Part shown: one piece after another, positions 114 to 13,133 of the stretch
How the letters are laid out: the number at the start of each line of letters is the position of its first letter
How positions within the stretch are numbered: the first letter of the stretch is position 1
Source: Dongia deserti
GTDB lineage: Bacteria; Pseudomonadota; Alphaproteobacteria; Dongiales; Dongiaceae
Direction: 5' to 3'
DNA: 64,000 nt
Assembly: GCF_003574735.1 (NCBI RefSeq)
Contig: NZ_QORW01000027.1
Span: 1 to 64,000, forward strand
Position numbers and translations under genes: made by a program
The notes under the pieces: model-generated
Seen by the model: the letters and a program-made list of their open reading frames with translations, nothing else
Told to the model about the DNA's origin: nothing
Database searches by the model: none

Positions 114-1550
114 CTAGATCAGCAGCGGCAGATCGCTGAGGTCCTGGGGTCCGAAACTCCCATCATGCCAGCGCAGCGCACGCGGCACGTCGATCAATCG
201 CTTTAAACCAAGCCGCGGCTTGAAATGGCAGAGACCGGGGACGAAGGCGCGCACTGCCGGCACGCCGATCTCTGTTCGCCGCAAATCAAGGACATAGGCC
301 TCTAGCCCGACGCGGCGCAGCCGTTCGCGTACGAGCTCGATCGTTTGTTCGTCGTCACAGGCGACATTGGGTGGGCGGCGCGCAACCAGCGTCTCGCCGG
401 GCTGCAGGTGCGATAATCGGCCGACCTTCGTCAGCCAGGTCAGCAATCGGCGATCCTCCGCGCGTGCTGCGTCGCCGGCCTGCGCCACCCGCCGCTTGGC
501 GAACGCGATGGACAGTTCCACCTGGCGCATCTCGCGATAGGCGGAGCGGACGGCGCGCACGCGGTCGGCGTGGCAACCGAAGCCAAGCGCCAGCAGGTTC
601 CCATCTGTGTCGCTCAGGATGGCGGCGATAACCGGGATCTCCAGGTCGTGGGTCAGGTCGAGCAAGCGGAGCTGTTGGCCCATGCGCTCGCGCGCTGCCA
701 GCGCCTGGGCGAGCAGATCGTTATCGAGCAGCGACGGCGGCACCGCAGGCCGCTGCACGCCGGCATACCACCAAATGCCGGTCGCATCGCGCTCCACCAG
801 TTCGAGCAGCGCATGCGCCAATGCGCTGTCCCGCGTCGGGCCTGTTGCGCATCCGTTGCTGTCGCCGCGCCAGCTGTGGTCGGTGCAGTCCGCGCGCGCG
901 CCGTAGTGTCCGAAGCAGATCTGCGATGGCAACCAACGCATGGATTGGTCCGTCAGCGCTTCGACCCCAGTCCAATCGATCTCGCCATCGAATGCGTCCG
1001 GCGCGGGGATGGCGTCATAACCTTGCCAGGAAACGTTGAGGGCACGCCATTGATCGCGCTGCGCCGATGCGAAGCCGAGCAGATCCCATGGGTTGATTGC
1101 CCGCTCAGCCAACCCCTGAAAATCGCACCGCTTGGCGCTGTCCCCTGTCCGATAGAGCCACGACTGGAATTCCGCAAACTCGCCAAGGCATGCGCGGATG
1201 GCTTCGTCGGAACGAAGTCCGGTTCCCGAGAATGCCTCGCGCGGTTCGCTGCCATGCTCCTGGATTGCAGCTGCGATCCACACCGTCTCATCTGCAGCCA
1301 CGCCGACCTCGAGGTGGAGATCGAATCGTGCCAGCAGGGCCAGCAGCGCGCGATCGGCCGCCGCATGCGCGCCGCTCCAGCGCCACGCTGCTTCCGATGG
1401 CTGTGCGTTCATCGCCTGAACAAATCCGACGCGCGCCAAATCCGACAGTGTTTTCTCATCGTCGGTGCTCTGCGCATGGAAGGCTGCGTCGTGAGACCAA
1501 CGACTTGCCAGCTCGCCATGCGCGGAGGAGAGAATCATGTTTCCAATCAT
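114..1550 (-). CDS. YcaO-domain protein 1 (putative RiPP cyclodehydratase/thioamidase)
   Basis: YcaO enzymes use ATP to activate peptide backbone amides, giving azolines, amidines or thioamides. The two ATP-site signatures are visible: GTGLRSDEAI followed by GEFAEF (residues about 109-128), and SNGCATGP followed by ELVERD (about 231-255). The C-terminal PAVRAFVPGL segment is also typical of the family. About 90 residues precede the first motif and may help bind the peptide. The frame is open to a TTG at 1595. I chose the ATG at 1550; 1538 is the alternative, and none has a strong ribosome binding site. No E1/ocin-ThiF or TfuA partner is visible. The gene is divergent from the precursor-like gene and the second YcaO gene. 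The C-terminus is DLPLLI, without the PxPxP end of classical azoline-forming YcaOs, so the reaction is open. Confidence 0.82.
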   Translation of the reverse strand: MIGNMILSSAHGELASRWSHDAAFHAQSTDDEKTLSDLARVGFVQAMNAQPSEAAWRWSGAHAAADRALLALLARFDLHLEVGVAADETVWIAAAIQEHGSEPREAFSGTGLRSDEAIRACLGEFAEFQSWLYRTGDSAKRCDFQGLAERAINPWDLLGFASAQRDQWRALNVSWQGYDAIPAPDAFDGEIDWTGVEALTDQSMRWLPSQICFGHYGARADCTDHSWRGDSNGCATGPTRDSALAHALLELVERDATGIWWYAGVQRPAVPPSLLDNDLLAQALAARERMGQQLRLLDLTHDLEIPVIAAILSDTDGNLLALGFGCHADRVRAVRSAYREMRQVELSIAFAKRRVAQAGDAARAEDRRLLTWLTKVGRLSHLQPGETLVARRPPNVACDDEQTIELVRERLRRVGLEAYVLDLRRTEIGVPAVRAFVPGLCHFKPRLGLKRLIDVPRALRWHDGSFGPQDLSDLPLLI

Positions 1551-1915
1551 GATTGCTGCGAGACGATGGAAGGTAGCATGACCCAAGCCGCACAAGATTG
1601 CTATGCGTTGAGGCGAACCTCATACGCAAAAGCTGACGCATCCACTTGATAGTCTCGCGGTCCAACGCCGAAGGACTCTTCGCTGCGCGCATGTATGGCA
1701 CGCTCGAGTATTCGCGCGAGAGCCTTCTCGTACACTCTGGCGACGTGCATGTTGCTTCGACCTTCACACACGCTATCAGCGCTTCAAAGAGCGAAAATTG
1801 TCGACGAGCGTATTGACAAGATTGGCCTCGTATAATAGTACGCGGGCGGGGCAATTGGGTGGATAAGAGTGCCCCGCTAACCTCAGACATCTAGCAAAAG
1901 CGGAAGGAGATGCTC
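1551..1915. other. Divergent intergenic region between YcaO 1 and the precursor-like gene
   Basis: This 365-base stretch separates the minus-strand YcaO gene from the plus-strand peptide gene and must carry the promoters for both. It contains an AT-rich island around 1795-1840 with sigma-70-like hexamers, listed separately. Open frames across it show no family resemblance and no ribosome binding sites. No second precursor peptide was recognised. Confidence 0.5.
1813..1836 (+). promoter_or_regulatory. Perfect -35 and -10 hexamers with abnormal 12-base spacing
   Basis: TTGACA lies at 1813-1818 and TATAAT at 1831-1836, about 80 bases upstream of the precursor-like gene and pointing toward it. 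Both hexamers match the sigma-70 consensus exactly, but the spacer is 12 bases instead of about 17. With 17-base spacing the -10 would be the poorer TAGTAC at 1836-1841. It may be a real promoter using that second -10, a promoter needing an activator, or chance. Confidence 0.35.
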
Positions 1916-2104
1916 ATGACAAGGGCAGGTACGCCTGTAACTTCGGCTGTCCAGCACAAGTCCTTCGCGGACTCAAGGATTTCGCCGCAACCGCTGCTTC
2001 GGTGCAAGTTGGCACCCCTTCCTCAAGAGATGCTTCGCTGCAGAAGCGACGTAACGATTTCGCCGCAACAGCTTTGTCGTTGCAAGGTCGCGGCAGGCAT
2101 CTAA
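1916..2104 (+). CDS. Putative RiPP precursor peptide, 62 aa, three Cys-containing repeats
   Basis: The start is set by GGAAGGAG at 1902-1909, six bases before the ATG at 1916; the in-frame ATG at 1910 overlaps this site. Residues 1-21 (MTRAGTPVTSAVQHKSFADSR) look like a short leader without a transmembrane or Sec signal. Residues 22-58 hold three related units: ISPQPLLRCKL, PLPQEMLRCRS and ISPQQLCRCKV. Each has PQ followed four to five residues later by R-C-K/R. There are four Cys (30, 42, 54, 56). Repeated Cys-bearing cores beside two YcaO genes suggest a modified peptide, with Cys (or Ser/Thr) turned into azolines or the backbone otherwise changed. I recognise no named precursor family. The protein is inferred from the sequence only. 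Confidence 0.6.
   Translation: MTRAGTPVTSAVQHKSFADSRISPQPLLRCKLAPLPQEMLRCRSDVTISPQQLCRCKVAAGI
1979..2089 (+). repeat. Three in-frame core repeats of the precursor-like gene
   Basis: Units 1 and 3 are also similar as DNA: both contain ATTTCGCCGCAAC, then after a variable middle TGCAAG. Unit 2 is more diverged. PQ pairs occur at residues 24, 36 and 50, and RC pairs at 29, 41 and 55, giving spacings of 12 and 14 residues. This pattern suggests internal duplication of a core, as in multi-core RiPP precursors. Confidence 0.6.
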
Positions 2105-2133
2105 CCGCCGCCAAAAAAGTATTCGTCTGCGGG

Positions 2134-2167
2134 GGAACGCTCAGATCCTCTGTCGTTTGAGCGTTCC
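2134..2167 (+). terminator. Perfect 10-bp hairpin after the precursor-like gene
   Basis: GGAACGCTCA (2134-2143) is the exact reverse complement of TGAGCGTTCC (2158-2167), with a 14-base loop. It lies between the peptide stop and the second YcaO gene, 50 bases before its ATG. No strong T-run follows, so it may be a leaky attenuator or an RNA-stabilising structure rather than a full terminator. Such hairpins behind precursor genes often allow more peptide than enzyme to be made. Confidence 0.5.
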
Positions 2168-2216
2168 TCCGTTCTAGCCATCGAAACGTAAGTCGATGTA
2201 AGGGGGGCGCGCGTCA

Positions 2217-3473
2217 ATGGAGGATTGCGGACATAGTCCTTTACGTGCCCTCTCGCAGATCGTGAGTGAGCCATACGCAATACCATGCATGGACGATGAG
2301 CCGTTCTTCCCGAGCTACATCGTCTATGCGGCAGATGGGGCAAATGCTCATGATGTAGTTGGCGAGGGCTCTGACCAATCGCTGAGCGGATTTGGAATTG
2401 CGGCGGAGCACTCGCTTGCTGAGATGAAGGCAGCGGGAGAGTGTCTGGAAAGCATCTGCGCACTGTTCCATAGACCGTCCAGAGACAAAGGGCCGGTTTC
2501 GTCCCAATCGCAGACGCTGGAGTCATCTGATCCGCGCGCATTTCGCGACGCGTTCTTTGCATCCCTCCCGGAGCATCACGAGGTCATAGACCATCAATTC
2601 GGGCTGTTAGAGCAGTGGCCCGTGTTGAACGCACGAACCGGTGAGGTCAGCACATGTCCAGCGCAGCTGATTTCTCTGTCCGCCGACTATGCGTCGGAAT
2701 GGCAACTCCTCTCAGAAAGAACGAGCGCGGGCCTGGCCGCTGGTGAAATTGGAACGCGACGCGCGACCACTGCTGCTGTACTCGAACACGTAGAGCGTGA
2801 CTCTGTGGCCGCCGCGTTCTCGGACCCTGAACGCATGAAGCCATTCGCGGCATTGCCAAGCGCGATCGCTGAACTGGTCAGCTATGTCGAGGGCTTCCGA
2901 CTCAAGCTGTTACTCTTCGACATCACATCTGATCTGGCCGTGCCGACGGTGTTGTGTATGGCACTCGACGAAACAGGACGAGGTCCCTTCTTGTCTGGCG
3001 GTGCGGCAGCGTGCCTGGACTTTAGCAACGCACTCGAAAAGGCGATACTCGAATCGGTCCAAGGACGCACAGTTCTGCGCCAACACGCGGCGGAATTTGC
3101 AGCCCTGAATGTCAAGTCCAGGCAATCGATCTCGTGTGGCATGGATCGTGTCGCCTACTGGTGGGATGTGGCACGGCACGCAGAACTGGACTTCTGCCTG
3201 CGAAGAGCGGAGCGGGACGGAGTGGACCCTGAGCCAGTCGCTTCCGTGCCCTCGTGCGAGTGTCTGCTGAATAACCTGTCAGTCAAAGGCTACGAGGTAT
3301 GGCTTGCTGACATCACTCTACCTTCTATCCGTGAGAGGGGATTTGAAGTCGTCCGCGCTCTTGTGCCAGGCCTGCACAGATTGCACCACAGCGAGGCCAA
3401 TCGGGAAAGCTACAGTCGACATTACGGGAACCTAGTGTGGGAGCAACATTGCCCACCTCATCCTATTGCGTAG
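2217..3473 (+). CDS. YcaO-domain protein 2
   Basis: This is a second YcaO-family enzyme of 418 residues. ATP-site signatures are SGFG (57-60) with GECLES (74-79), and TSAGLAAG (169-176) with EHVERD (190-195). A VVRALVPGL segment lies near the C-terminus. The protein ends in PPHPIA, resembling the proline-rich tail that classical azoline-forming YcaOs place in their active site. It is co-directional with and 112 bases downstream of the precursor-like gene, with a hairpin between. A purine-rich AAGGGGGG stretch precedes the ATG. The two YcaO proteins are only distantly similar, so they may act on different residues, as the two stand-alone YcaOs do in bottromycin synthesis. Confidence 0.82.
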   Translation: MEDCGHSPLRALSQIVSEPYAIPCMDDEPFFPSYIVYAADGANAHDVVGEGSDQSLSGFGIAAEHSLAEMKAAGECLESICALFHRPSRDKGPVSSQSQTLESSDPRAFRDAFFASLPEHHEVIDHQFGLLEQWPVLNARTGEVSTCPAQLISLSADYASEWQLLSERTSAGLAAGEIGTRRATTAAVLEHVERDSVAAAFSDPERMKPFAALPSAIAELVSYVEGFRLKLLLFDITSDLAVPTVLCMALDETGRGPFLSGGAAACLDFSNALEKAILESVQGRTVLRQHAAEFAALNVKSRQSISCGMDRVAYWWDVARHAELDFCLRRAERDGVDPEPVASVPSCECLLNNLSVKGYEVWLADITLPSIRERGFEVVRALVPGLHRLHHSEANRESYSRHYGNLVWEQHCPPHPIA

Positions 3474-3561
3474 GGCTTCGGTGATGAGACTTTGTAGGGA
3501 TGCCATACATCGCTCCGACGGGCCGTGGGGTGCCGGCCACATTCTCGTGGGGTAGTTCCAG

Positions 3562-5625
3562 ATGACGATCTCGATAGAGCCGGCCTGCTACACCAATCCG
3601 AAGCACAAGATTCTATTCGAGCCTGTAAGGATCGGACCGGTCGTCGCTCCTAACAGATTTTATCAGACGCCCTATGCAACGGGATTTGGCTTCCGGGATC
3701 CGAAGGCAAGCGCCAAGTTCCGAGAAGTCAGAGCTGAGGGTGGATGGGGCGTCGTCGGCACCGAGCAGACCGAAATTCATTCCTCTTCAGACATGACGCC
3801 GTACATAGAAGGCAGGCTTTGGGACGACAGCCACATCGCCGGGCTTGCGCTGAGCGTCGATGCGATCCACCGGCACGGTGCCTTGGCTGCGCTGGAACTG
3901 TCCCATGGCGGCTTGAATGTCATGAACGCGATTACTCGCGACGATGTCCTCGGCCCAAGTTGCCTGCCGCTGACACAAACATTTCCCACGCTGCCTGAAC
4001 CAGGCCACTGCCGAGCGATGAGCCTGGAAGACATAAAGACCCTTCGGGAGTGGCATGCGCAGGCGGCTGTCCGCGGGCTGAAAGCAGGCTTTGACATCAT
4101 ATATGTCTATGCCAGCTTGGTGCTGTCGCTGCCTGCCCAGTACCTGTCACTGCGCTACAACAAGAGAACCGATCAATACGGCGGCGCGCTAGAGAATCGC
4201 GTCCGCTTACTGCGGGAACTCATTGAAGACACAATCGATGCGGTGCAAGGGAAGTGCGCGGTGGCTGTACGCATAACCCTCGATGAGCTGTTGGCGTCTC
4301 CCGTCGACGGCAAGTCCGAACTTGAAGAATTCTTTGCCATCGTCGGGGAGTTGCCTGATCTTTGGGACATCGTGGTCGGCGGCTACGGAAACGATTCTGG
4401 ATCGGCACAATTTGGTGGCGGCGACATTGCGACGTCAGTCGTGAAGCGGGTGAAAGCGTTGACCACCAAGCCAGTCGTGAGTGTGGGCTGCTTTACCCAG
4501 CCGGACATCATGACGAAACTGATTCTGGAGGGCGTGGTGGACCTGATCGGTGCGGCACGTCCGTCGATTGCCGACCCATTCCTTCCGAAGAAGATCGCCA
4601 GCGGAAGAGGGAACGACGTTATCAAGTGCGTGGCATGCAATCTCTGCGTCGCAAGCGATTTCTCCAGCGCGCCGATCCGGTGTCCACAAAACCCGACGTC
4701 AGGCGAGGAGCTGAGACGTGGTTGGCATCCCGTGCATGTTGGTGCTGTATCGCGAAAGCGCTGCCTGGTAGTGGGCGCGGGCCCGGCAGGGCTGGAGTGC
4801 TCCAGGCTACTCGCCGCAGCCGGGCATGAGGTAACGATCGTTGAGCAGCAAGACTATGTTGGCGGTCGTGTGACTTTGGAGTCACTGCTGCCCGGCATGA
4901 GTCGATGGCGAGACCTCGTCTCCTGGCGACATGAAGCGTTGCTCAAGGACCCTGCCGTCAAGATTAAGACCAGTACACGTGCGGTGGCGGGGGCGTGGTT
5001 GTCGGATCGCTACGATCACATCATTCTCGCGACGGGTTCGCGATGGCGGAAAGACGGCATTGGTCAGTCCTGTCATTTTCCAGTACAGATCGACGGCGAT
5101 GCCGTTCCGTTGACGCCTGACGACGTGCTGAGGCGAATCCAAGGTGGTCAAACTCACTGGCCGAAGTCCGTAACGGTTTACGACGACGAGCACTACTACG
5201 TTGGGAGCTTGGTTGCTGAGCACCTTGCCGCGATGGGATGTCACGTTACCTTCGTGACACCGGCCGCCGAGGTGGCGGTCTGGACACATAAGACGATGGA
5301 GCAGACGTACTATCAATCCAGGATGATAAGGAGTGGCATCACAATTCTACCGCACTATCGCATGGCGCACATTTCCAGGAACTGGTGCCAGCTCGAGAAT
5401 GTGTTTGTCGGGTCGGTTGTTGAGGTTGCCCATGATGCGATCGTTCTAGTGACCGCACGAGAGCCGAACCGCGAACTCCATGATGCGCCGTTCATCGCCC
5501 TACCGACAGTGCGACCGACATTGGCAGGCGACGCGTCAGCCCCTGGGACGCTTGTGCATGTCACCTACGATGCCCATCGCGTTGCGAGAACCATAATTGA
5601 AGCCGACTCTTTGGTGGCGGCCTAG
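3562..5625 (+). CDS. TMADH/2,4-dienoyl-CoA reductase-type flavin and Fe-S oxidoreductase
   Basis: This 687-residue protein has an old-yellow-enzyme TIM barrel (about 15-350), a cluster motif CVACNLC...C with Cys 356, 359, 362 and 374 (CX2CX2CX11C, one [4Fe-4S]), and a dinucleotide-binding half with GAGPAG at 405-410. That order is diagnostic for trimethylamine dehydrogenase, 2,4-dienoyl-CoA reductase and related FMN/FAD enzymes. The barrel motif NKRTDQYGGALENR (200-213) is conserved. Known members remove N-methyl groups or reduce or oxidise unsaturated substrates. In this locus an inferred role is peptide tailoring, such as azoline oxidation or side-chain dehydrogenation. The stop abuts the next ATG with no gap, implying translational coupling. 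Confidence 0.85.
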   Translation: MTISIEPACYTNPKHKILFEPVRIGPVVAPNRFYQTPYATGFGFRDPKASAKFREVRAEGGWGVVGTEQTEIHSSSDMTPYIEGRLWDDSHIAGLALSVDAIHRHGALAALELSHGGLNVMNAITRDDVLGPSCLPLTQTFPTLPEPGHCRAMSLEDIKTLREWHAQAAVRGLKAGFDIIYVYASLVLSLPAQYLSLRYNKRTDQYGGALENRVRLLRELIEDTIDAVQGKCAVAVRITLDELLASPVDGKSELEEFFAIVGELPDLWDIVVGGYGNDSGSAQFGGGDIATSVVKRVKALTTKPVVSVGCFTQPDIMTKLILEGVVDLIGAARPSIADPFLPKKIASGRGNDVIKCVACNLCVASDFSSAPIRCPQNPTSGEELRRGWHPVHVGAVSRKRCLVVGAGPAGLECSRLLAAAGHEVTIVEQQDYVGGRVTLESLLPGMSRWRDLVSWRHEALLKDPAVKIKTSTRAVAGAWLSDRYDHIILATGSRWRKDGIGQSCHFPVQIDGDAVPLTPDDVLRRIQGGQTHWPKSVTVYDDEHYYVGSLVAEHLAAMGCHVTFVTPAAEVAVWTHKTMEQTYYQSRMIRSGITILPHYRMAHISRNWCQLENVFVGSVVEVAHDAIVLVTAREPNRELHDAPFIALPTVRPTLAGDASAPGTLVHVTYDAHRVARTIIEADSLVAA

Positions 5626-6555
5626 ATGACCCGGGAACACACGATCAGTAAGCAGGCATTCGGGGTTGTGACGCTTGGCGTCCTGTGGAGTGTTCAGCCG
5701 GCTATCGTCAAATACTCTGCCATCACCAATATGTCTCCGTCCGCCTTTCTGCTTGGCGCCTCCGCCACAGTTGCCATACTGCTCTGTGCGTACAATGTCG
5801 CGACCCGCCACTCGCTCCTTTCCATCGTTACGAAGTGGCGATTTTATCAAGCTTCGGCGTTGACTGGGTTCTTCTTTCCGCTTCTCGTCCGAATCTATAT
5901 TTCAGACACGGTGCCGCTCTACATTCTCACCGTTGCCGTTGCGCTGACTCCCGCATTTGTCGCTCTCATAACCCGGTTCTATCTGGGGCAAGCGCTATCC
6001 ACGCTGGCGGCTTGGTCGCTTATCCTTGGTGTTTGCGGCACAATCATAAGCGTTCTTCCGGACATCGCTGACGGAGACACCGCTCTTCGCATGAAGAGTC
6101 TGGCGGTAGTGCTCATTCCATTCTCCTACGCAGTCAATCAGGTGTTCGTGTGCAGGGCATTTCCAACGGATAGCACTTCGATACAGGTGGCCGCAGGCGA
6201 GAGCGCCCACACACTTCTTATCACCGTCTGCTTTGTCATAAGCATGGTGCTTCTCGGACGCGATGAGATTGGTGATCCGTTGGATGTATCGGCCGTCTCA
6301 GGTGCTGTGCTTTTCTGGGGAATAGTCACCGCGCTGGAGACAGTCGCGTTCTTCTGGTTCTCTGCTCGGGCACACCCGATAAGTGTTTCCGTCGCGGTCT
6401 ATACGTCGATCGGCTTTAGCATCTTCGGTGGCTGGCTGGTCTTCGGGGAGGAGGTAAGCGCGAGCAGCCTGTTGGGGGTAATTCTGATTGTGCTGTCTGC
6501 TACAGGGATCGCATATCAGGAAGGCCGCAAGACCAGCCGCACGGGCGTAACGTAG
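5626..6555 (+). CDS. EamA/DMT-family transporter
   Basis: This 309-residue protein is mostly hydrophobic, with about ten predicted membrane segments in two five-helix halves, the usual EamA layout. The glycine-rich last segments around GWLVFGEEVSASSLLGVILI match the conserved end of the second EamA repeat. Family members export or import metabolites such as amino acids. Its ATG directly follows the stop of the oxidoreductase gene, so the two are almost certainly co-translated. The likely role here is export of a small product or self-protection. Peptide export by EamA proteins is not established, so the cargo is open. Confidence 0.8.
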   Translation: MTREHTISKQAFGVVTLGVLWSVQPAIVKYSAITNMSPSAFLLGASATVAILLCAYNVATRHSLLSIVTKWRFYQASALTGFFFPLLVRIYISDTVPLYILTVAVALTPAFVALITRFYLGQALSTLAAWSLILGVCGTIISVLPDIADGDTALRMKSLAVVLIPFSYAVNQVFVCRAFPTDSTSIQVAAGESAHTLLITVCFVISMVLLGRDEIGDPLDVSAVSGAVLFWGIVTALETVAFFWFSARAHPISVSVAVYTSIGFSIFGGWLVFGEEVSASSLLGVILIVLSATGIAYQEGRKTSRTGVT

Positions 6556-6613
6556 CGCTAGGAGAAAGCACCTGCGCTCTGTGAAGGCACGCTAGCTGAA
6601 AACGGAGGATGCC

Positions 6614-6802
6614 ATGCCACTAATTCGAGTCGAGTTCTTGAAGGGAAGAACGCAGGAGGAGAAGAAGAAGCTCATTCGTGCACTAACCAACACGTATGCG
6701 GAAGTGATGGGGAGCGATCCGGAAAGCATCTATGTAATTATTGAGGAGAGGGAGTGGACCGACTGGGCCCTTGGCGGCGTGCCGTTCTCAGAGCGACCAT
6801 GA
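6614..6802 (+). CDS. 4-oxalocrotonate tautomerase-family protein
   Basis: The 62-residue length and the Pro directly after Met are hallmarks of the 4-OT family, where Pro1 is the catalytic base after Met removal. The opening MPLIRVEFLKGRTQEEKKKL fits the beta-alpha unit, and VIIEEREWTDWALGGVPFSE fits the usual second half. GGAGG sits five bases before the ATG. Family members shift keto-enol double bonds and assemble as hexamers. It is 58 bases downstream of the transporter and likely in the same operon. A tautomerase in a YcaO locus is unusual. Confidence 0.78.
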   Translation: MPLIRVEFLKGRTQEEKKKLIRALTNTYAEVMGSDPESIYVIIEEREWTDWALGGVPFSERP

Positions 6803-7123
6803 TCAGCTGCGGGCGCTGAGATCAGCGGTGCGGTTCGGGAATTGGAACAGAGCTTAGGGGCCTCGACCGGCCGATCGTTGGCTCAGTTGGTAGAGAGTTC
6901 TATGGCCACTTTCTCGCCCGACTAGGCCCATAACGGAAAAGTCCACAAGCTCACCAACATGTGTGCGGTTGCCTTCGCCCGGCCACTCGCTTCTTTTCCT
7001 CATCAAACGCGCATCGGTGGGGCTTGCCAACCAGCCATATGTACTGGGAAGAAGAGTCGTGGAGCTGGGCGACGATCCTCGGGATTCCTCTGAGTCGAGC
7101 AGGAACTGGGACGTAGTAACCGC
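6803..7123. other. Intergenic region with tRNA 5'-half-like remnant at 6880-6895
   Basis: This 321-base gap contains GGCTCAGTTGGTAGAG at 6880-6895, identical to the D-arm region common in bacterial tRNAs. No matching anticodon arm, T-loop or 3' acceptor follows, so it is at most a broken tRNA or an attachment-site remnant. The open frame on the minus strand across it (6854-7138) includes LYQLS, the antisense reading of that tRNA motif, and is not a credible gene. Nothing else was recognised. Confidence 0.45.
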
Positions 7124-9169
7124 ATGTTGACGGCGCACCTGCTTGGCGGATTCAGCCTCAGCGACCCCAAGGGCCGCGATGTCTCGCCGCGCTCGCGCAA
7201 GGCACGCGGGCTGCTCGGCTATCTGCTGCTATCGGACCTAGGCAGCGAGCGGCGCGAGAAACTGGCCGGACTGCTGTGGAGTGAGAGCCCAATCGAGCAG
7301 GCTTATGATTCCCTGCGGCATTGCGTGGCAGAGCTACGGAGGGTTGGCCAGGCTGCCGGCATCGCCTTTCTCAATGCCGACCGGCAAAGCGTGCGCATCG
7401 ATCGGTCGCAGATCAGATGTGACGTTGTTGACCTGAAAGCCAACCTTGCCGCCGCGCGCACCGCGGATTGCCGTCACCTGCTGTCAGCGCCCGATCTCAC
7501 CTTGATGCCGGGCTTGGAGGCGGACGATCCGACCTTCGACAACTGGCTTCTGGTCGAGCGCGAACGCAATGCCGAGATCCTCGTGCGCGAGATGCTGGTA
7601 CTCCTGCAGCGCCCGGGCATCGAGCCGCGCGACCGGGTTGACCTGGCCCGCGCGATCGAGCGGCTCGATCCCTATCAGGAGGATGCCGTCCGCATTCACA
7701 TGGAGCAGCTGGCGGCGGAGGGCAATATCGCCGCCGCGACCGCCTATTTTGAGCGATACCGTGCACGATTGCTCCGCGAATACGAGGTCGAGCCATCGGA
7801 AGGGCTGGTAGACTTTGTCGAAGGCCTCGCCGCGCGCCGGAGCGGTGCCAGCCGCAAGCCAAAGACTGTGGAACCGGCTTCCTTGGAGCCTGCGATCGCG
7901 CCTCAGCCGGAGGCGGGACGCCACGGCGTTCCGATCATTGCGGTTCTTTCGGTGCCGAGCGCGCAGCAATCTGATCAGCTTAGGTACCTCTCAGAGGCCT
8001 TCATGCAGGAGCTTGTGTCCACCCTGTGCCGCTTCAAGGATTGGACCGTGACTGTCCCCGGCACGCCAATGGAAGAGAAGGTTCAGTCGAGTGCTGACGC
8101 TGCGCTCGCTGAATTGTCGGCCCGCGGCGTGGATTTTGCCCTCGTCGCGTCCATTGCCGCGGTCGCCGGCGCAACGGCCATCAATGTAAGGCTGGTCGAG
8201 TGCGACAGCCGTGCTGTGGTGATCTCCGATCAATACCCTGCTTCGTCGGAGAACTGGCTCGCGGCGTTGAATGACATCTGCTGCAGGATCGCGTCCCGGA
8301 CCAAGATTAGCTTGGTGACCGCCCGGTTGCGACGAGTCGCGGGGCGATCGATCGAACGGCGCCAAGCTTATGACCTTTGGCTGGAAGGTCGGGTCATGGC
8401 TAACATCTGGGAGCCTGAGACCGAAGAAAAGGCGGTCGAGCTGTTCTCGCGTGCCGTGCAATTGGACGGCAATTTGGCGGACGCCTACTCATGGTGGGCC
8501 TCAGTGCTGAATTCTCGCTGGATTGTCCATCCCGGCGCGATCGCTGATGAGGGGAACCGCGAACGGGCGTACCAGCTCGCCAAGCGCGCGGTGGCGCTGG
8601 ACCCGCTGAACAACCTTACGCAAGGCAATCTCGGGTGGAGCCACCTTCTCGCGCGCCGCTTTGAGTCGGCGGAATTGCACTTTCGCCTGGCGTACGAACT
8701 CAATCCCTCTAGCCCGGACAATCTGCTGGCGTGCGGACTGGCGAGCGCGTTCTGCGGTGATCATCCACGCGCCCGGGAGCTTTCGCGGCGCGCCTTCGAC
8801 CTCAACCCGTTTCCGCAGCCTTATTACTATGGATATCGTGCTAGCATCGATTTTCTCGGACGCGACTTCGTGGCCTGCATCGAGGCGGTCAATCGCGTGC
8901 CCGACTTGTTCCCTGACATCCAGGGCTGGGCGGCGGTGTCGCATGCCCATCTGGGCCAGCTTTCAGCCGCGAGTTCTGCGCTCGACCGCTATCAGGAGGA
9001 CATGCGCAGATGTTGGGCAGGCCCGTCGAACCCGAACGGCGAGGACCTATGTACGTGGTTTGCCACGGCCTTCCCCATTCGCCTTGAGGCCGATCGCCAG
9101 CTGATTGCAGACGGCCTCGCGATGATACGGCAGCAGGTACAGGCCCTCGCACGCCGAATGTCGTCTTAG
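7124..9169 (+). CDS. SARP-type transcriptional activator with BTAD and TPR domains
   Basis: This 681-residue protein begins with a winged-helix DNA-binding segment (about 1-90, including LLGGFSLSDPKGRDVSPRSR and REKLAGLLWSE). A bacterial transcriptional activation domain follows (about 95-235). A middle part (about 265-390) resembles the TolB-like or adenylate-cyclase-associated region, and a long C-terminal half is made of TPR-like helices (about 400-660). SARP proteins often activate secondary-metabolite clusters, and this one sits between two unusual loci. Its stop overlaps that of the convergent NHLP-like gene. The ribosome binding site is weak. Confidence 0.78.
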   Translation: MLTAHLLGGFSLSDPKGRDVSPRSRKARGLLGYLLLSDLGSERREKLAGLLWSESPIEQAYDSLRHCVAELRRVGQAAGIAFLNADRQSVRIDRSQIRCDVVDLKANLAAARTADCRHLLSAPDLTLMPGLEADDPTFDNWLLVERERNAEILVREMLVLLQRPGIEPRDRVDLARAIERLDPYQEDAVRIHMEQLAAEGNIAAATAYFERYRARLLREYEVEPSEGLVDFVEGLAARRSGASRKPKTVEPASLEPAIAPQPEAGRHGVPIIAVLSVPSAQQSDQLRYLSEAFMQELVSTLCRFKDWTVTVPGTPMEEKVQSSADAALAELSARGVDFALVASIAAVAGATAINVRLVECDSRAVVISDQYPASSENWLAALNDICCRIASRTKISLVTARLRRVAGRSIERRQAYDLWLEGRVMANIWEPETEEKAVELFSRAVQLDGNLADAYSWWASVLNSRWIVHPGAIADEGNRERAYQLAKRAVALDPLNNLTQGNLGWSHLLARRFESAELHFRLAYELNPSSPDNLLACGLASAFCGDHPRARELSRRAFDLNPFPQPYYYGYRASIDFLGRDFVACIEAVNRVPDLFPDIQGWAAVSHAHLGQLSAASSALDRYQEDMRRCWAGPSNPNGEDLCTWFATAFPIRLEADRQLIADGLAMIRQQVQALARRMSS

Positions 9170-9558
9170 CCGTGCTTGCAGCGGCCGAACATGTATTCCC
9201 CGAAGCGGAAGAACATGGCTTTACGCGGGAAGCGGCTATCATCGATATAGTCCGGCGTTCCCGGCCGGTATTCGAGCGGATAGACGCTGGTCTGCTCGTC
9301 GATGCGGTCCATGGCCCGATCGACGTCGTCCTTCCACGGCAGCACCATGTGCGTCACGTCACGGGTATCTTCGTGAACGATGATGGTGTGCTTCACAATC
9401 TTGCCGTTCTCTTCCCTGTCGGCCGGAATGTCGACGAACTTGCTCAGCGTCCCGATCGGGTCTTCAACCAATTGCCGCCTTGCACCGCCAATATCCTGGG
9501 CAGCCTTGATGATGAGTTCGCCCAGTTCAACCTTGTCCTTTACGCGCAGCTTTGCCAT
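9166..9558 (-). CDS. NHLP-leader-like (nitrile hydratase leader peptide) domain protein
   Basis: The start at 9558 is supported by AAGGAG nine bases upstream; the frame extends further, but without a ribosome binding site. The 130-residue product opens MAKLRVKDKVELGELIIKAA, continues with RRQLVEDPIGTLSKF, then HTIIVHEDTRDVTHMVLPW. That series (Ala/Asp helix, LxxDP, VHEDTxxxxHxVLP) resembles the NHLP leader domain, derived from nitrile hydratase alpha subunit and used as a long leader by some RiPP precursors. About 55 residues follow, ending FGEYMFGRCKHG. It is the last gene of a minus-strand operon with a haem peroxidase. It could be a RiPP precursor or an accessory subunit. Confidence 0.6.
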   Translation of the reverse strand: MAKLRVKDKVELGELIIKAAQDIGGARRQLVEDPIGTLSKFVDIPADREENGKIVKHTIIVHEDTRDVTHMVLPWKDDVDRAMDRIDEQTSVYPLEYRPGTPDYIDDSRFPRKAMFFRFGEYMFGRCKHG

Positions 9559-9607
9559 GTGCGGGCTCCTTGTCTGACGATGTTGCTTGCTGGATGTGTG
9601 CTCCAGT

Positions 9608-11266
9608 CTAAGCCAGTGTTTTGACGATGACCTCGGCAAGATCGGCATCGGGCATCGCCGGGACCTTCAGCAGGTGCGGCAGCTTCACGATGCCGGTGGG
9701 TTTCAGGATCCGATCGAAGTCGAGCCCCCTTTGCCCTGCAGGCGTCGCATAGGTCTGCGGAGCTTTCTTCAACGCATACAGGATCGCCGCCGCGAAAATG
9801 TGGGAGCCGAGCGGCCCGAGGTAGCGTCCGTTGCCGCCAAGCACCGCGGCTTCCTGCAGCAGATAGTAGGAGAGCGGCGTCTCCGTCAGGAATTCTGGAT
9901 GCGCCTGCAGTGCGGCCGTCAGCTTCTCCGCCGGGTGCAGGTTGGAGAATGCCGGTCTTGGCAGCATGTCCTCTTGTGTCAGAATCTTCTTCGACGCAGA
10001 GCCGAACAGCTGGCGCGCGCACTCCTGCCCCGTGGGAATCTCGAACTGATAACACCGCCAGAGATCGTGGAACGAGAGCGAGCCCTCGAAGTCGGTGCGT
10101 CGGTTCTTGAGATCGCTATGAACGAAGGTCGGCGCCAGGAATGGCGAAATCCGCCGGGCGCTTTGCGGCGTAACTCGATCCTCCATCTCTCCATCGTCCA
10201 TCTCGAGCAGCTGGCGCCAATCGACGACCCAGTCCGCCGGCAGCGGCAGATTGGCGCCCGGCGAACTGGAGGAGAACGACATCAGCCGGCCCAGGCCGCT
10301 GGCACCCAGACCGATATGATTGTTGATCGTGTACGCCGCGCGGACCATCGCGTGCCCGACGCGCGCAGCACCGAACACGAATTCGATCGGCAGATGGTCC
10401 TGCGATGCGATCTTTCCGGCTTTCAGATCGCCATAGACCGCAGGCAGCAGGAGAAGCTGCAGATAGTCGTGCACGACGATGCGGCGGTATGCTATCAGAA
10501 CGAAGTGCCGCGCGAGCTCGAAGCTCTCCTTCTTCGACAGCGGCCGGTTCGCGTCGGCGGGATCGCCATTGTGATGCAGGTAGCGCGCAACCCTATTGTG
10601 CACGAGCATGAACTGCGCCGTGAGCTGTGCCAGGATAAGGTTGTCGTCGTTGCGCGCGTCGCGTACCAACGGCGTTATGCTTGTCCCTGCAGACCACCCC
10701 CCGGCCGCACCGGCTCTCGGAAGGTCATAGGGAAGGCCTTCGCCCTGCTCCCAATTCTCCGGTAGTGCCGCCTTGGCAGTACGCCCCAGATGGAACAGGT
10801 ACTGGCCGTCATCCTCGATATCCTGCGGCCGGTTCAGATAACCCGCCTCATACGGCGCCTGATAGAGGTGAGGGCATTGCGTCGGACCGCCGCCGTAGAT
10901 CGTGTCCAGGTCGAGGTTCGGCGTCATCAGATTCTGCAGCGTGACGGATGCTCCGCCCTGCCCCGAGCCGGCAATGCTCTGGGTCAGGTCGTGCACGACC
11001 AGCTGGCCGAAGTACGTATATCCCGCAGGGATGTTGTCGCGATCGTCCTTGGGCGGATCATCGACACCGCTGGATCGCGCATCCGCGATCTCGGCGATCG
11101 CATTCCTGTCCAGTGCCGCGCTGCCGCGCTTTGCCGTCGTGCCCGCAGCGAACAGGTTGCTGTAGTGCTTGACCGGGCATTGCACGTGCGTGCCTTCGCT
11201 GCCGCTCGCCGATGCTGCTGACGAGAGATTGCTGCCATGAATGTCGGAAAGATTACCGTGCCGCAT
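9608..11266 (-). CDS. Animal-type haem peroxidase
   Basis: This 552-residue protein matches the animal haem peroxidase superfamily (myeloperoxidase/cyclooxygenase fold). Its distal-site motif YFGQLVVHDLT holds His92 and Asp93. A second block, VRDARNDDNLILAQL followed by FMLVHNRVARYL (201-230), corresponds to the family's conserved DxRxxxNxxL...HNR region. RRIVVHDYLQ (261-270) is a candidate proximal-His segment. The ATG at 11266 has GGAGG five bases upstream, better than the longer frame to 11302. No signal peptide is evident, so it may be cytoplasmic. Bacterial members oxidise fatty acids, halides or peptides using peroxide. It is the third gene of the four-gene operon. Confidence 0.85.
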   Translation of the reverse strand: MRHGNLSDIHGSNLSSAASASGSEGTHVQCPVKHYSNLFAAGTTAKRGSAALDRNAIAEIADARSSGVDDPPKDDRDNIPAGYTYFGQLVVHDLTQSIAGSGQGGASVTLQNLMTPNLDLDTIYGGGPTQCPHLYQAPYEAGYLNRPQDIEDDGQYLFHLGRTAKAALPENWEQGEGLPYDLPRAGAAGGWSAGTSITPLVRDARNDDNLILAQLTAQFMLVHNRVARYLHHNGDPADANRPLSKKESFELARHFVLIAYRRIVVHDYLQLLLLPAVYGDLKAGKIASQDHLPIEFVFGAARVGHAMVRAAYTINNHIGLGASGLGRLMSFSSSSPGANLPLPADWVVDWRQLLEMDDGEMEDRVTPQSARRISPFLAPTFVHSDLKNRRTDFEGSLSFHDLWRCYQFEIPTGQECARQLFGSASKKILTQEDMLPRPAFSNLHPAEKLTAALQAHPEFLTETPLSYYLLQEAAVLGGNGRYLGPLGSHIFAAAILYALKKAPQTYATPAGQRGLDFDRILKPTGIVKLPHLLKVPAMPDADLAEVIVKTLA

Positions 11267-11408
11267 GTTCCCCTCCGCGAAAAGCGATACCCGCTTGCCC
11301 AAACAGATCGGCGACGAAGGCCTATGCTACTCGTGCTTGCGGTATCCCGCTTGTGTCAAAATGCGTGTGGGTTAGGGGCGGCACATCATGTGCGCCGCCC
11401 GCTCCTGA

Positions 11409-11714
11409 TCACCCCGTCGGAAACCAAAGGCTGGCGTGAAGAATCTCGTCAACGATGCTGTCCCTGGTGTGCGCAAGCGGCCGATCGTACGTCTTCACCG
11501 CCTTGATACGAATATCTTCCGCATGCAGTTCGGCGTATTTCGCACGCAGTGCTTCGAAGATCGCCGAAAGCCGATCTGCCCATGGCTCCGGACCGATGTT
11601 CAGGTTCGCTGGCTTCAAGCCAACGTTATACTCATCCTCCGGGATCAATGTCGGCACCAGGACGTGAAACATGGCTCGATTCACGTCGTAGTTCACCTGT
11701 ATGCGGGTAGGCAT
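11409..11714 (-). CDS. Small conserved-looking protein B, paralogue of the upstream gene
   Basis: This 101-residue protein has a GGGAG ribosome binding site six bases before the ATG. I recognise no family. It aligns with the product of the neighbouring upstream gene. Shared positions include DVN..M, an L-x-P with a following E/D-K/E-Y, PW or DW then L..IF.A.R.KY, and PLA.T...IV..I. It is soluble, without a signal or membrane segment. The gap to the peroxidase gene is 142 bases. A role as a substrate-binding or scaffold partner of the peroxidase is inference from context. Confidence 0.65.
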   Translation of the reverse strand: MPTRIQVNYDVNRAMFHVLVPTLIPEDEYNVGLKPANLNIGPEPWADRLSAIFEALRAKYAELHAEDIRIKAVKTYDRPLAHTRDSIVDEILHASLWFPTG

Positions 11715-11739
11715 CGTACTCTCCCTCAGCCGCCGCCAT

Positions 11740-12135
11740 TCAACTCGCCTGGCGCGCCGGGGCTTTGGTCGTGGAACCCAGGACGCGGCGCTTGAATGCG
11801 TGTCGCAGCGATGGCGAAAAAATTCTCCCGACGATCAGCTGATGCGTGGTCGCCAGTGGCAGTGCCAACGTGGCAGCAATATCCTGCTGCGATGGCCGCG
11901 GCGGCAGGACCGGGTACTTCCGGCGCACCGCCTGGAATATGGACGTCAGCTGCTCCGTCCAGTCGGGTGTTGTCGCATTCCAGTCCTGCTGCGGAACCAG
12001 GGCCAGATCGTATTTCTCGGCATCGACTGGTTTGGGAGTGAGCGCGTCGTACATCGTCTGGTTGACGTCATGCGCGACGGTGATCGGGTCTGGCACCATC
12101 AAGGCTGCCCTTTCCAAAGCTGTTAAAGTCTGCAT
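11740..12135 (-). CDS. Small protein A, paralogue of the following gene
   Basis: This 131-residue product starts MQTLTALERAALMVPDPITV; GGGAGAA precedes the ATG. It is the first gene of the minus-strand operon (A, B, peroxidase, NHLP-like), only 25 bases from gene B. The central segment DVNQTMYDALTPKPVDAEKY and later QLTSIFQAVRRKYPVL pair with matching positions in B, so the two arose by duplication. It carries a short extra N-terminus and a basic C-terminal tail. The function is unknown; conserved domains were not recognised by eye. Confidence 0.65.
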   Translation of the reverse strand: MQTLTALERAALMVPDPITVAHDVNQTMYDALTPKPVDAEKYDLALVPQQDWNATTPDWTEQLTSIFQAVRRKYPVLPPRPSQQDIAATLALPLATTHQLIVGRIFSPSLRHAFKRRVLGSTTKAPARQAS

Positions 12136-12311
12136 TGTGGTTCTCCCTCGGTATGAGTGGTGACGGGGGCAAGATGACCAAAAGTGCCGTGAAGCCAGCG
12201 TGAATAACCGAATCTCTGGAATCACAAGTATTTAGCTGCTCCTTTCACGCTGATGCGCGGGCTCTGCGCGTCGGTTAGATTGCAGATCGATCAACGACGA
12301 ACGGAATTTCT

Positions 12312-12875: not shown

Positions 12876-13133
12876 CTAGAGGACAGTGCCGCCCTTGCTG
12901 GTGCATTCCTCGGCCGAGGCGGTCGGAAGCCAGCCGTGGCCTTTGCAGGCGTTGAGGCCTTTGCATGAGCTGCTTGCGGTCTTGCACGCGCTCTGGCCTT
13001 TGCAGGCGTTGATGCCCGAACATTGCACTTCCGCCGACTGGGTCGGCTTGTCATAGCTGGAACAGCCCGCCACCAGTAGCAGAGCCGCCGCGGCCGCCAG
13101 GGACGCCCCCGAAGCGATACGCATATTGCTCAT
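12876..13133 (-). CDS. Bufferin-like (BufA2-type) Cys-rich lipoprotein, putative metal-binding RiPP
   Basis: This 85-residue protein has a signal sequence ending LLLVAGC, a lipobox, so Cys24 is probably lipidated. The mature part has paired motifs INACKGQSACKTASSSCKG and LNACKGHGW, ending EECTSKGG. This resembles BufA2-type bufferins, periplasmic copper-binding RiPPs whose cysteines are modified by a DUF692 (MNIO) enzyme. GGGAGGAG precedes the ATG. No BufB (DUF692) or BufC partner is in the window, so this is an orphan. It may be modified in trans, or act unmodified as a metal-binding lipoprotein. Typical bufferins use plain Sec signals, so the lipobox is odd. Confidence 0.68.
   Translation of the reverse strand: MSNMRIASGASLAAAAALLLVAGCSSYDKPTQSAEVQCSGINACKGQSACKTASSSCKGLNACKGHGWLPTASAEECTSKGGTVL

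Follow-up and report, generated by a model that had tools for sequence, protein, structure and literature searches.

A gene cluster at about positions 114–12135 of the window (the first 64,000 nucleotides of contig NZ_QORW01000027.1 of Dongia deserti) probably turns the tail of a small protein, which bears a cysteine, into a modified peptide by means of a YcaO and an unusual haem peroxidase. It recurs in Mesorhizobium and in one deep-sea bacterium. Four of its genes, those for proteins A and B, the peroxidase and an NHLP-like protein, had been described in an earlier note as a closely spaced group on one strand, which is correct: all lie on the minus strand, with gaps of 25, 142 and 49 bp and good ribosome-binding sites. 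The same note took them for a second system, separate from the YcaO genes, but they form half of a larger cluster, and belong with the two YcaO genes at 114–3473 because the gene order is conserved across loci. The cluster comprises:

114–1595, minus strand: YcaO1, a YcaO cyclodehydratase of the azoline-forming type (likely start, ATG at 1550; PF02624, TIGR03604)
1916–2104, plus strand: candidate multi-core precursor of 62 residues with three in-frame PQxxxRC[KR] units (ribosome-binding site GGAG upstream)
2217–3473, plus strand: YcaO2, a second YcaO, divergent from YcaO1 (PF02624, E 5.6e-36)
3562–5625, plus strand: OYE/FadH-type Fe-S flavin oxidoreductase (PF00724, E 3.8e-53)
5626–6555, plus strand: EamA/DMT transporter (PF00892, E 1.3e-9)
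6614–6802, plus strand: 4-oxalocrotonate tautomerase family protein (PF01361, E 1.1e-17)
7124–9169, plus strand: BTAD-TPR (SARP/AfsR-like) regulator (PF03704, E 1.2e-5; TPR_2)
9166–9558, minus strand: NHLP-like protein of 130 residues, candidate precursor (sub-threshold TIGR03793; conserved tail)
9608–11266, minus strand: animal-type haem peroxidase of 552 residues (PF03098), without both covalent haem-link carboxylates
11409–11714, minus strand: protein B, 101 residues, genus-restricted paralogue of A (BLASTP, genome searches)
11740–12135, minus strand: protein A, 131 residues, genus-restricted paralogue of B (BLASTP, genome searches)
12186–12205, minus strand: direct repeat TTCACGC-TGGC-TTCACGG with an 11-bp period, candidate box for the BTAD regulator

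YcaO1 lies beside the start of the window, which is also the edge of the contig. The D. deserti genome has three YcaO genes, two of them in the cluster. The regulator is convergent with the NHLP-like gene and overlaps it by 4 bp, while YcaO1 is separated from the regulator by YcaO2, the OYE-type enzyme, the transporter and the tautomerase; apart from this the genes keep the relative orientation seen in other genomes. The top NCBIfam match of the OYE-type enzyme is mycofactocin OYE_2, at 320 bits against a cut-off of 793.

The conserved unit consists of the peroxidase, the NHLP-like protein, the convergent BTAD-TPR regulator and a YcaO cyclodehydratase. Eight loci of Mesorhizobium carry it, as do Pararhizobium and Paroceanicella, with the genes arranged and oriented in much the same way. 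When only YcaO1 and its two relatives were used as seeds, a scan of 84,980 species returned 13 loci, one of which is from the same genus (G003). Eight proteobacterial loci (L017–L024) carry the peroxidase, NHLP-like and regulator genes in the same order; in the seven from Mesorhizobium, tblastn places peroxidase, NHLP-like protein, convergent regulator and divergent YcaO one after the other. The Pararhizobium locus (L021) has matches to the peroxidase, the regulator and the YcaO, and its NHLP-like gene is recognised by position and tail, the ORF at the expected place ending in ...LLGTILLKRCR. The instances in M. huakuii and Paroceanicella profunda were reached independently, starting from the peroxidase. 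In P. profunda, PF03098, BTAD (below its cut-off) and YcaO were found by Pfam, the small protein ends in ...RLGDYVLQHCD, and the YcaO gene is on the same strand as the regulator, unlike the opposite-strand arrangement elsewhere. A YcaO1 counterpart is present in every conserved locus, and the BTAD regulator is kept in every proteobacterial locus having the NHLP-like gene. In M. huakuii a DMT transporter precedes the peroxidase; by tblastn it has no match to the transporter of the window. An Acetobacteraceae MAG contig (L025 5031-8312) carries a YcaO and a BTAD regulator, with no recognised peroxidase or NHLP-like gene within its 9.6 kb. Paired neighbouring YcaO genes occur in Pseudonocardia and Actinotalea (L026 10001-11882, 18433-20136; L028 10001-11844, 18213-20156; L027 6963-9268); they resemble the YcaO1/YcaO2/OYE group of the window, the Pseudonocardia loci having an OYE enzyme several kb off.

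The start of the NHLP-like protein had been placed at 9648, where the gene would overlap that of the peroxidase; the ATG at 9558, preceded by AAGGAG, is far better. The domain for which the protein is named is real and recognisable but weak, with TIGR03793 giving E 0.01–0.018 and about 15.7 bits against a cut-off of 50.9. The stretch DPIGTLSKFVDIP...IIVHEDTRDVTHMVLP aligns with nitrile hydratase/NHLP, and the local match to nitrile hydratase alpha is DP..L...VDIP...I.VHEDT...HMVLP (hhalign E 7e-4, probability only 26%). The Mesorhizobium relatives match no library model. Fold prediction for the protein (pLDDT 49, best Z 3.6) was uninformative.

The candidate core is the C-terminus, RFGEYMFGRCKHG (about 9169–9207), which in the window contains one Cys and no Ser or Thr, leaving a single cyclisable residue. 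No Gly-Gly cleavage site precedes it. All 12 NHLP-like proteins share this conserved tail, usually [LF]G[DE]Yxxx.RC[KR], which is near-invariant, not hypervariable. Its Cys is invariant (12/12); Arg precedes it in 11 of the 12 and His in Paroceanicella, and the residue that follows is Lys, Arg or Asp. In Paroceanicella HCD takes the place of RC[KR], and in Pararhizobium the tail is without the tyrosine. YcaO proteins of E. coli and methanogens act on whole proteins, and conceivably the NHLP-like protein is likewise left uncleaved, its C-terminal Cys being modified by YcaO and peroxidase (as a thiazoline, thioamide or cross-link) in a full-length redox or metal-binding protein. The near-invariance of the tail would suit such a product, as would the well-conserved body within Mesorhizobium (62–93% identity to M. 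huakuii) and a cluster with no visible protease or peptidase-type exporter. Between families, however, the body diverges strongly (about 17–32% identity for the Pararhizobium and Paroceanicella proteins) while the tail Cys stays, and the triple-repeat ORF between the YcaO genes resembles a multi-core peptide more than a folded protein; we consider an uncleaved product unlikely.

That ORF (1916–2104) encodes the repeats SPQPLLRCK, LPQEMLRCR and SPQQLCRCK, at spacings of 36 and 42 bp, each divisible by three. From copy to copy the codons of the conserved Pro and Arg change, but not the residues. Three RC[KR] were obtained in 0 of 100,000 amino-acid shuffles of the ORF, and in the six frames of the window no other stretch has three. 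RC[KR], common to this ORF and to the NHLP-like tail, is the likely substrate motif. The other loci have neither triple RC[KR] peptides nor a homologue of the ORF. A scan for sigma-70 promoters and terminators between the YcaO genes found none; perfect TTGACA and TATAAT elements occur upstream of the ORF at 1813–1836 (plus strand), 12 bp apart, which is too close for normal sigma-70. An alternative is that the small protein resembles NHLP by chance and serves the peroxidase or YcaO as a dedicated subunit or chaperone. The sub-threshold NHLP score, the low-confidence model and the low hhalign probability speak for it. Against it, the C-terminal Cys motif recurs in a separate peptide, the weak score falls on the diagnostic region (VHEDT..VTHMVLP), and G003 has the protein but no peroxidase; we rate this alternative as very improbable.

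YcaO1 matches PF02624 at E 1.3e-60 and TIGR03604 at E 1.4e-51, the latter below that model's cut-off; this SagD-family cut-off of 219 bits is missed, with 175.6 and 113 bits. The residues E139, E142, E265, E268 and R269 of the ATP/Mg motifs are invariant in YcaO1, YcaO2 and their relatives. The nearest solved relatives of YcaO1 are LynD/TruD/MusD, enzymes that make azolines. For an E1-like/RRE partner, TIGR03882 has no match above its cut-off in the genome, with the contig ending beside YcaO1. The missing partner is not fatal, because partner-free stand-alone YcaO enzymes are known from bottromycin, where two YcaO proteins occur without partners and one forms a thiazoline at one Cys (PMC8442711).

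The peroxidase falls in PF03098 (E 6e-9, 35.4 bits against a cut-off of 25). Its frame of 564 residues opens at a TTG at 11302, and the ATG at 11266, with a GGAGGGG site, gives 552; by inspection there is no obvious signal sequence. The distal site had been called intact, which is so for Gln100, His104 and Arg217, with the proximal His317 also present, but the equivalents of Asp108 and Glu258 are Val and Asp. These two carboxylates (lactoperoxidase numbering) are the covalent haem links; they are typical of, and established for, the mammalian enzymes, and are not needed for Pfam membership. In an alignment of 21 sequences, with lactoperoxidase placed by profile match, both haem histidines are retained in each of the 11 cluster peroxidases, which have V, F or A at the Asp108 position and D or L at the Glu258 position; nine stand-alone relatives have D and E there. 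One very divergent Paracoccus sequence, on an extreme branch, lacks both carboxylates. The cluster peroxidases do not form one clade in the tree, and since Pararhizobium and Paroceanicella sit apart on long branches, the shared residue changes may be convergent, or the tree placement wrong. Peptide patterns of the peroxidase had no match in genome or viral contigs.

As the neighbourhood search proposed in the earlier note bears out, the peroxidase of the cluster clade does not lie alone; in each of the ten further loci where it occurs (eight in Mesorhizobium, one each in Pararhizobium and Paroceanicella), which span two orders, the next gene downstream is the NHLP-like one. This constant position, and the cluster-specific residue changes, count against its being a detoxification or signalling enzyme that is merely co-regulated, with YcaO and the NHLP-like protein forming a peptide system without it. 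That quite improbable account would fit other PF03098 relatives, which lie without YcaO, and it would fit G003, which keeps A-B, the NHLP-like gene, the BTAD regulator and YcaO and has no match to the peroxidase anywhere in its genome. Because it is missing from this same-genus locus, the peroxidase is not essential in every version of the cluster. On a Spirosoma plasmid (L052 2887-6286) genes for a YegP-family protein and a ThiF-family adenylyltransferase come after that of a PF03098 peroxidase, another possible pairing of haem peroxidase with peptide-activating chemistry.

Proteins A and B are paralogues, as first read, with 33% identity (BLASTP E 2e-14). They had also been taken as part of the core of the system, but neither Mesorhizobium nor Pararhizobium has them in its loci, and among the genomes sampled their relatives are confined to the genus. 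A search of plasmids and about 400 genomes of the phylum found them only in the window and in the same-genus genome, where A-B is one continuous frame (66% identity for A, 50% for B). Neither contains a cysteine, and A is predicted, with low confidence, to be mostly helical. As NHLP-Burk precursors they were rejected, there being no cysteine and no TIGR03795 match. AlphaFold models (mean pLDDT 61; Foldseek best E 1.1) gave nothing usable, nor did sequence matches (Flavoprotein 390 at E 0.65). The direct repeat is some 50 bp upstream of A, and the same-genus locus has it in the equivalent position; the genome of the window contains no other copy. Direct repeats with an 11-bp period are the layout of SARP boxes, so the BTAD regulator is a candidate to bind at 12186–12205. 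G003 has a second copy of the TTCACGCTGGCTTCACGGC box (L032, C2:410864-411022), the third in all, which precedes a very short ORF away from the cluster and could point to a further target of the regulator. At 12876–13133 on the minus strand, within 1 kb of A, there is a BufA2-family bufferin precursor (NF050166, 86.9 bits against a cut-off of 60), itself a copper-related RiPP.

The earlier proposal, a RiPP-like system in which a peroxidase accompanies an NHLP-type substrate, is still the best reading, and its NHLP resemblance survives, shorn of the separate system and the A/B core. We regard it as fairly probable that this is a YcaO-dependent RiPP cluster in which the NHLP-like tail is cyclised by YcaO1 and oxidised by the peroxidase, with the 62-residue peptide as a second substrate. 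From the genes, their order, the tail, the repeats and the peroxidase residues we infer the product, all of the chemistry, which enzyme does which step, and how the peptide is processed and exported. The NHLP-like protein (9166–9558) would be the main precursor, with its nitrile-hydratase-like body as leader and its C-terminal tail, ending in RCK, as core. YcaO1 would activate the Arg carbonyl with ATP and cyclise the invariant Cys to a thiazoline. The peroxidase would then oxidise the tail: the ring might be aromatised to a thiazole, or the conserved Tyr hydroxylated or joined in a radical cross-link. It could take the place of the SagB dehydrogenase that the cluster lacks, or have the Tyr of GEY/GDY as its target; since this Tyr is absent from Pararhizobium, the Cys or its ring is the more plausible guess. 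The 62-residue peptide would bear the same recognition motif in its three RC[KR] units, the SARP-like regulator would control the cluster genes, the DMT transporter is a candidate exporter, and A and B may, as a guess, supply precursor recognition.

This RiPP reading is supported because searches seeded with YcaO1 and with the peroxidase both reach the conserved unit, the tail Cys persists in 12/12 proteins despite diverged bodies, RC[KR] appears thrice between the YcaO genes, YcaO1 is nearest to azoline-forming enzymes, and the peroxidases carry a cluster-specific signature. It is weakened by the lack of an E1/RRE partner (none above cut-off in the genome with TIGR03882), of an NHLM-type ABC exporter (no match above cut-off) and of a SagB-type dehydrogenase among the cluster genes, and by an NHLP match far below cut-off. 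The invariant tail with its single cyclisable residue, the triple-repeat ORF without homologues in other loci, the same-genus locus without peroxidase, the HCD tail of Paroceanicella and the missing Tyr of Pararhizobium weaken it further. If it is true, animal-type haem peroxidases join the enzymes that tailor ribosomal peptides, and there is a class of YcaO precursor with an invariant single-Cys tail, of a kind that escapes precursor finders because these are tuned to Cys/Ser/Thr-rich cores. The invariant tail and the peroxidase signature together make a simple search rule, with a directly testable product.

In PQQ and mycofactocin, the C-terminal residues of a small precursor are invariant. 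The precursor C-terminus is likewise invariant here, suggesting one conserved product, and there is a small chance that the cluster makes a single small molecule or cofactor of this sort, with YcaO and a peroxidase with non-covalent haem acting on the C-terminal Arg-Cys-Lys and the tandem-core peptide as a second source. The OYE-type enzyme resembles the mycofactocin OYE_2, with a score far below cut-off; unlike both pathways, the cluster has YcaO and no radical-SAM enzyme. The peroxidase resembles lactoperoxidase and bacterial PF03098 enzymes in its distal Gln-His, Arg and proximal His, and differs from lactoperoxidase at the Asp108 and Glu258 positions. YcaO1 is nearest in sequence to the cyanobactin heterocyclases LynD/TruD, and two YcaO proteins occur as in bottromycin; in contrast to both, there is no N-terminal RRE/E1 domain, the precursors are different, and the layout is leader rather than follower. 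NHLP/TOMM RiPP clusters have proteusin-type leaders (Haft et al. 2010, PMC2887384), and the present cluster is like them in its putative nitrile-hydratase-like leader region and in the clustering of a precursor gene with a SagD-type YcaO. Unlike them, it has no fused E1-like/YcaO protein, no NHLM exporter and no GG site before the tail, a single invariant Cys in place of their Cys/Ser/Thr-rich variable core, and a haem peroxidase instead of the SagB dehydrogenase. In NHLP-Burk (TIGR03795) pairs one member ends in Cys or Cys-Cys (PMC2887384), and the NHLP-like protein here nearly ends in Cys; these pairs are in tandem and fused in some genomes, as A-B is in G003, but A and B are without cysteine and TIGR03795 matches nothing in the cluster. 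The earlier note knew of no named system of this make-up, and a literature search (subscription journals mostly outside its coverage) agrees, having found none combining YcaO with a haem peroxidase, and no paper joining the two with a RiPP. The components are of known kinds and their combination appears to be new, a variant of the YcaO/NHLP-type RiPP clusters.
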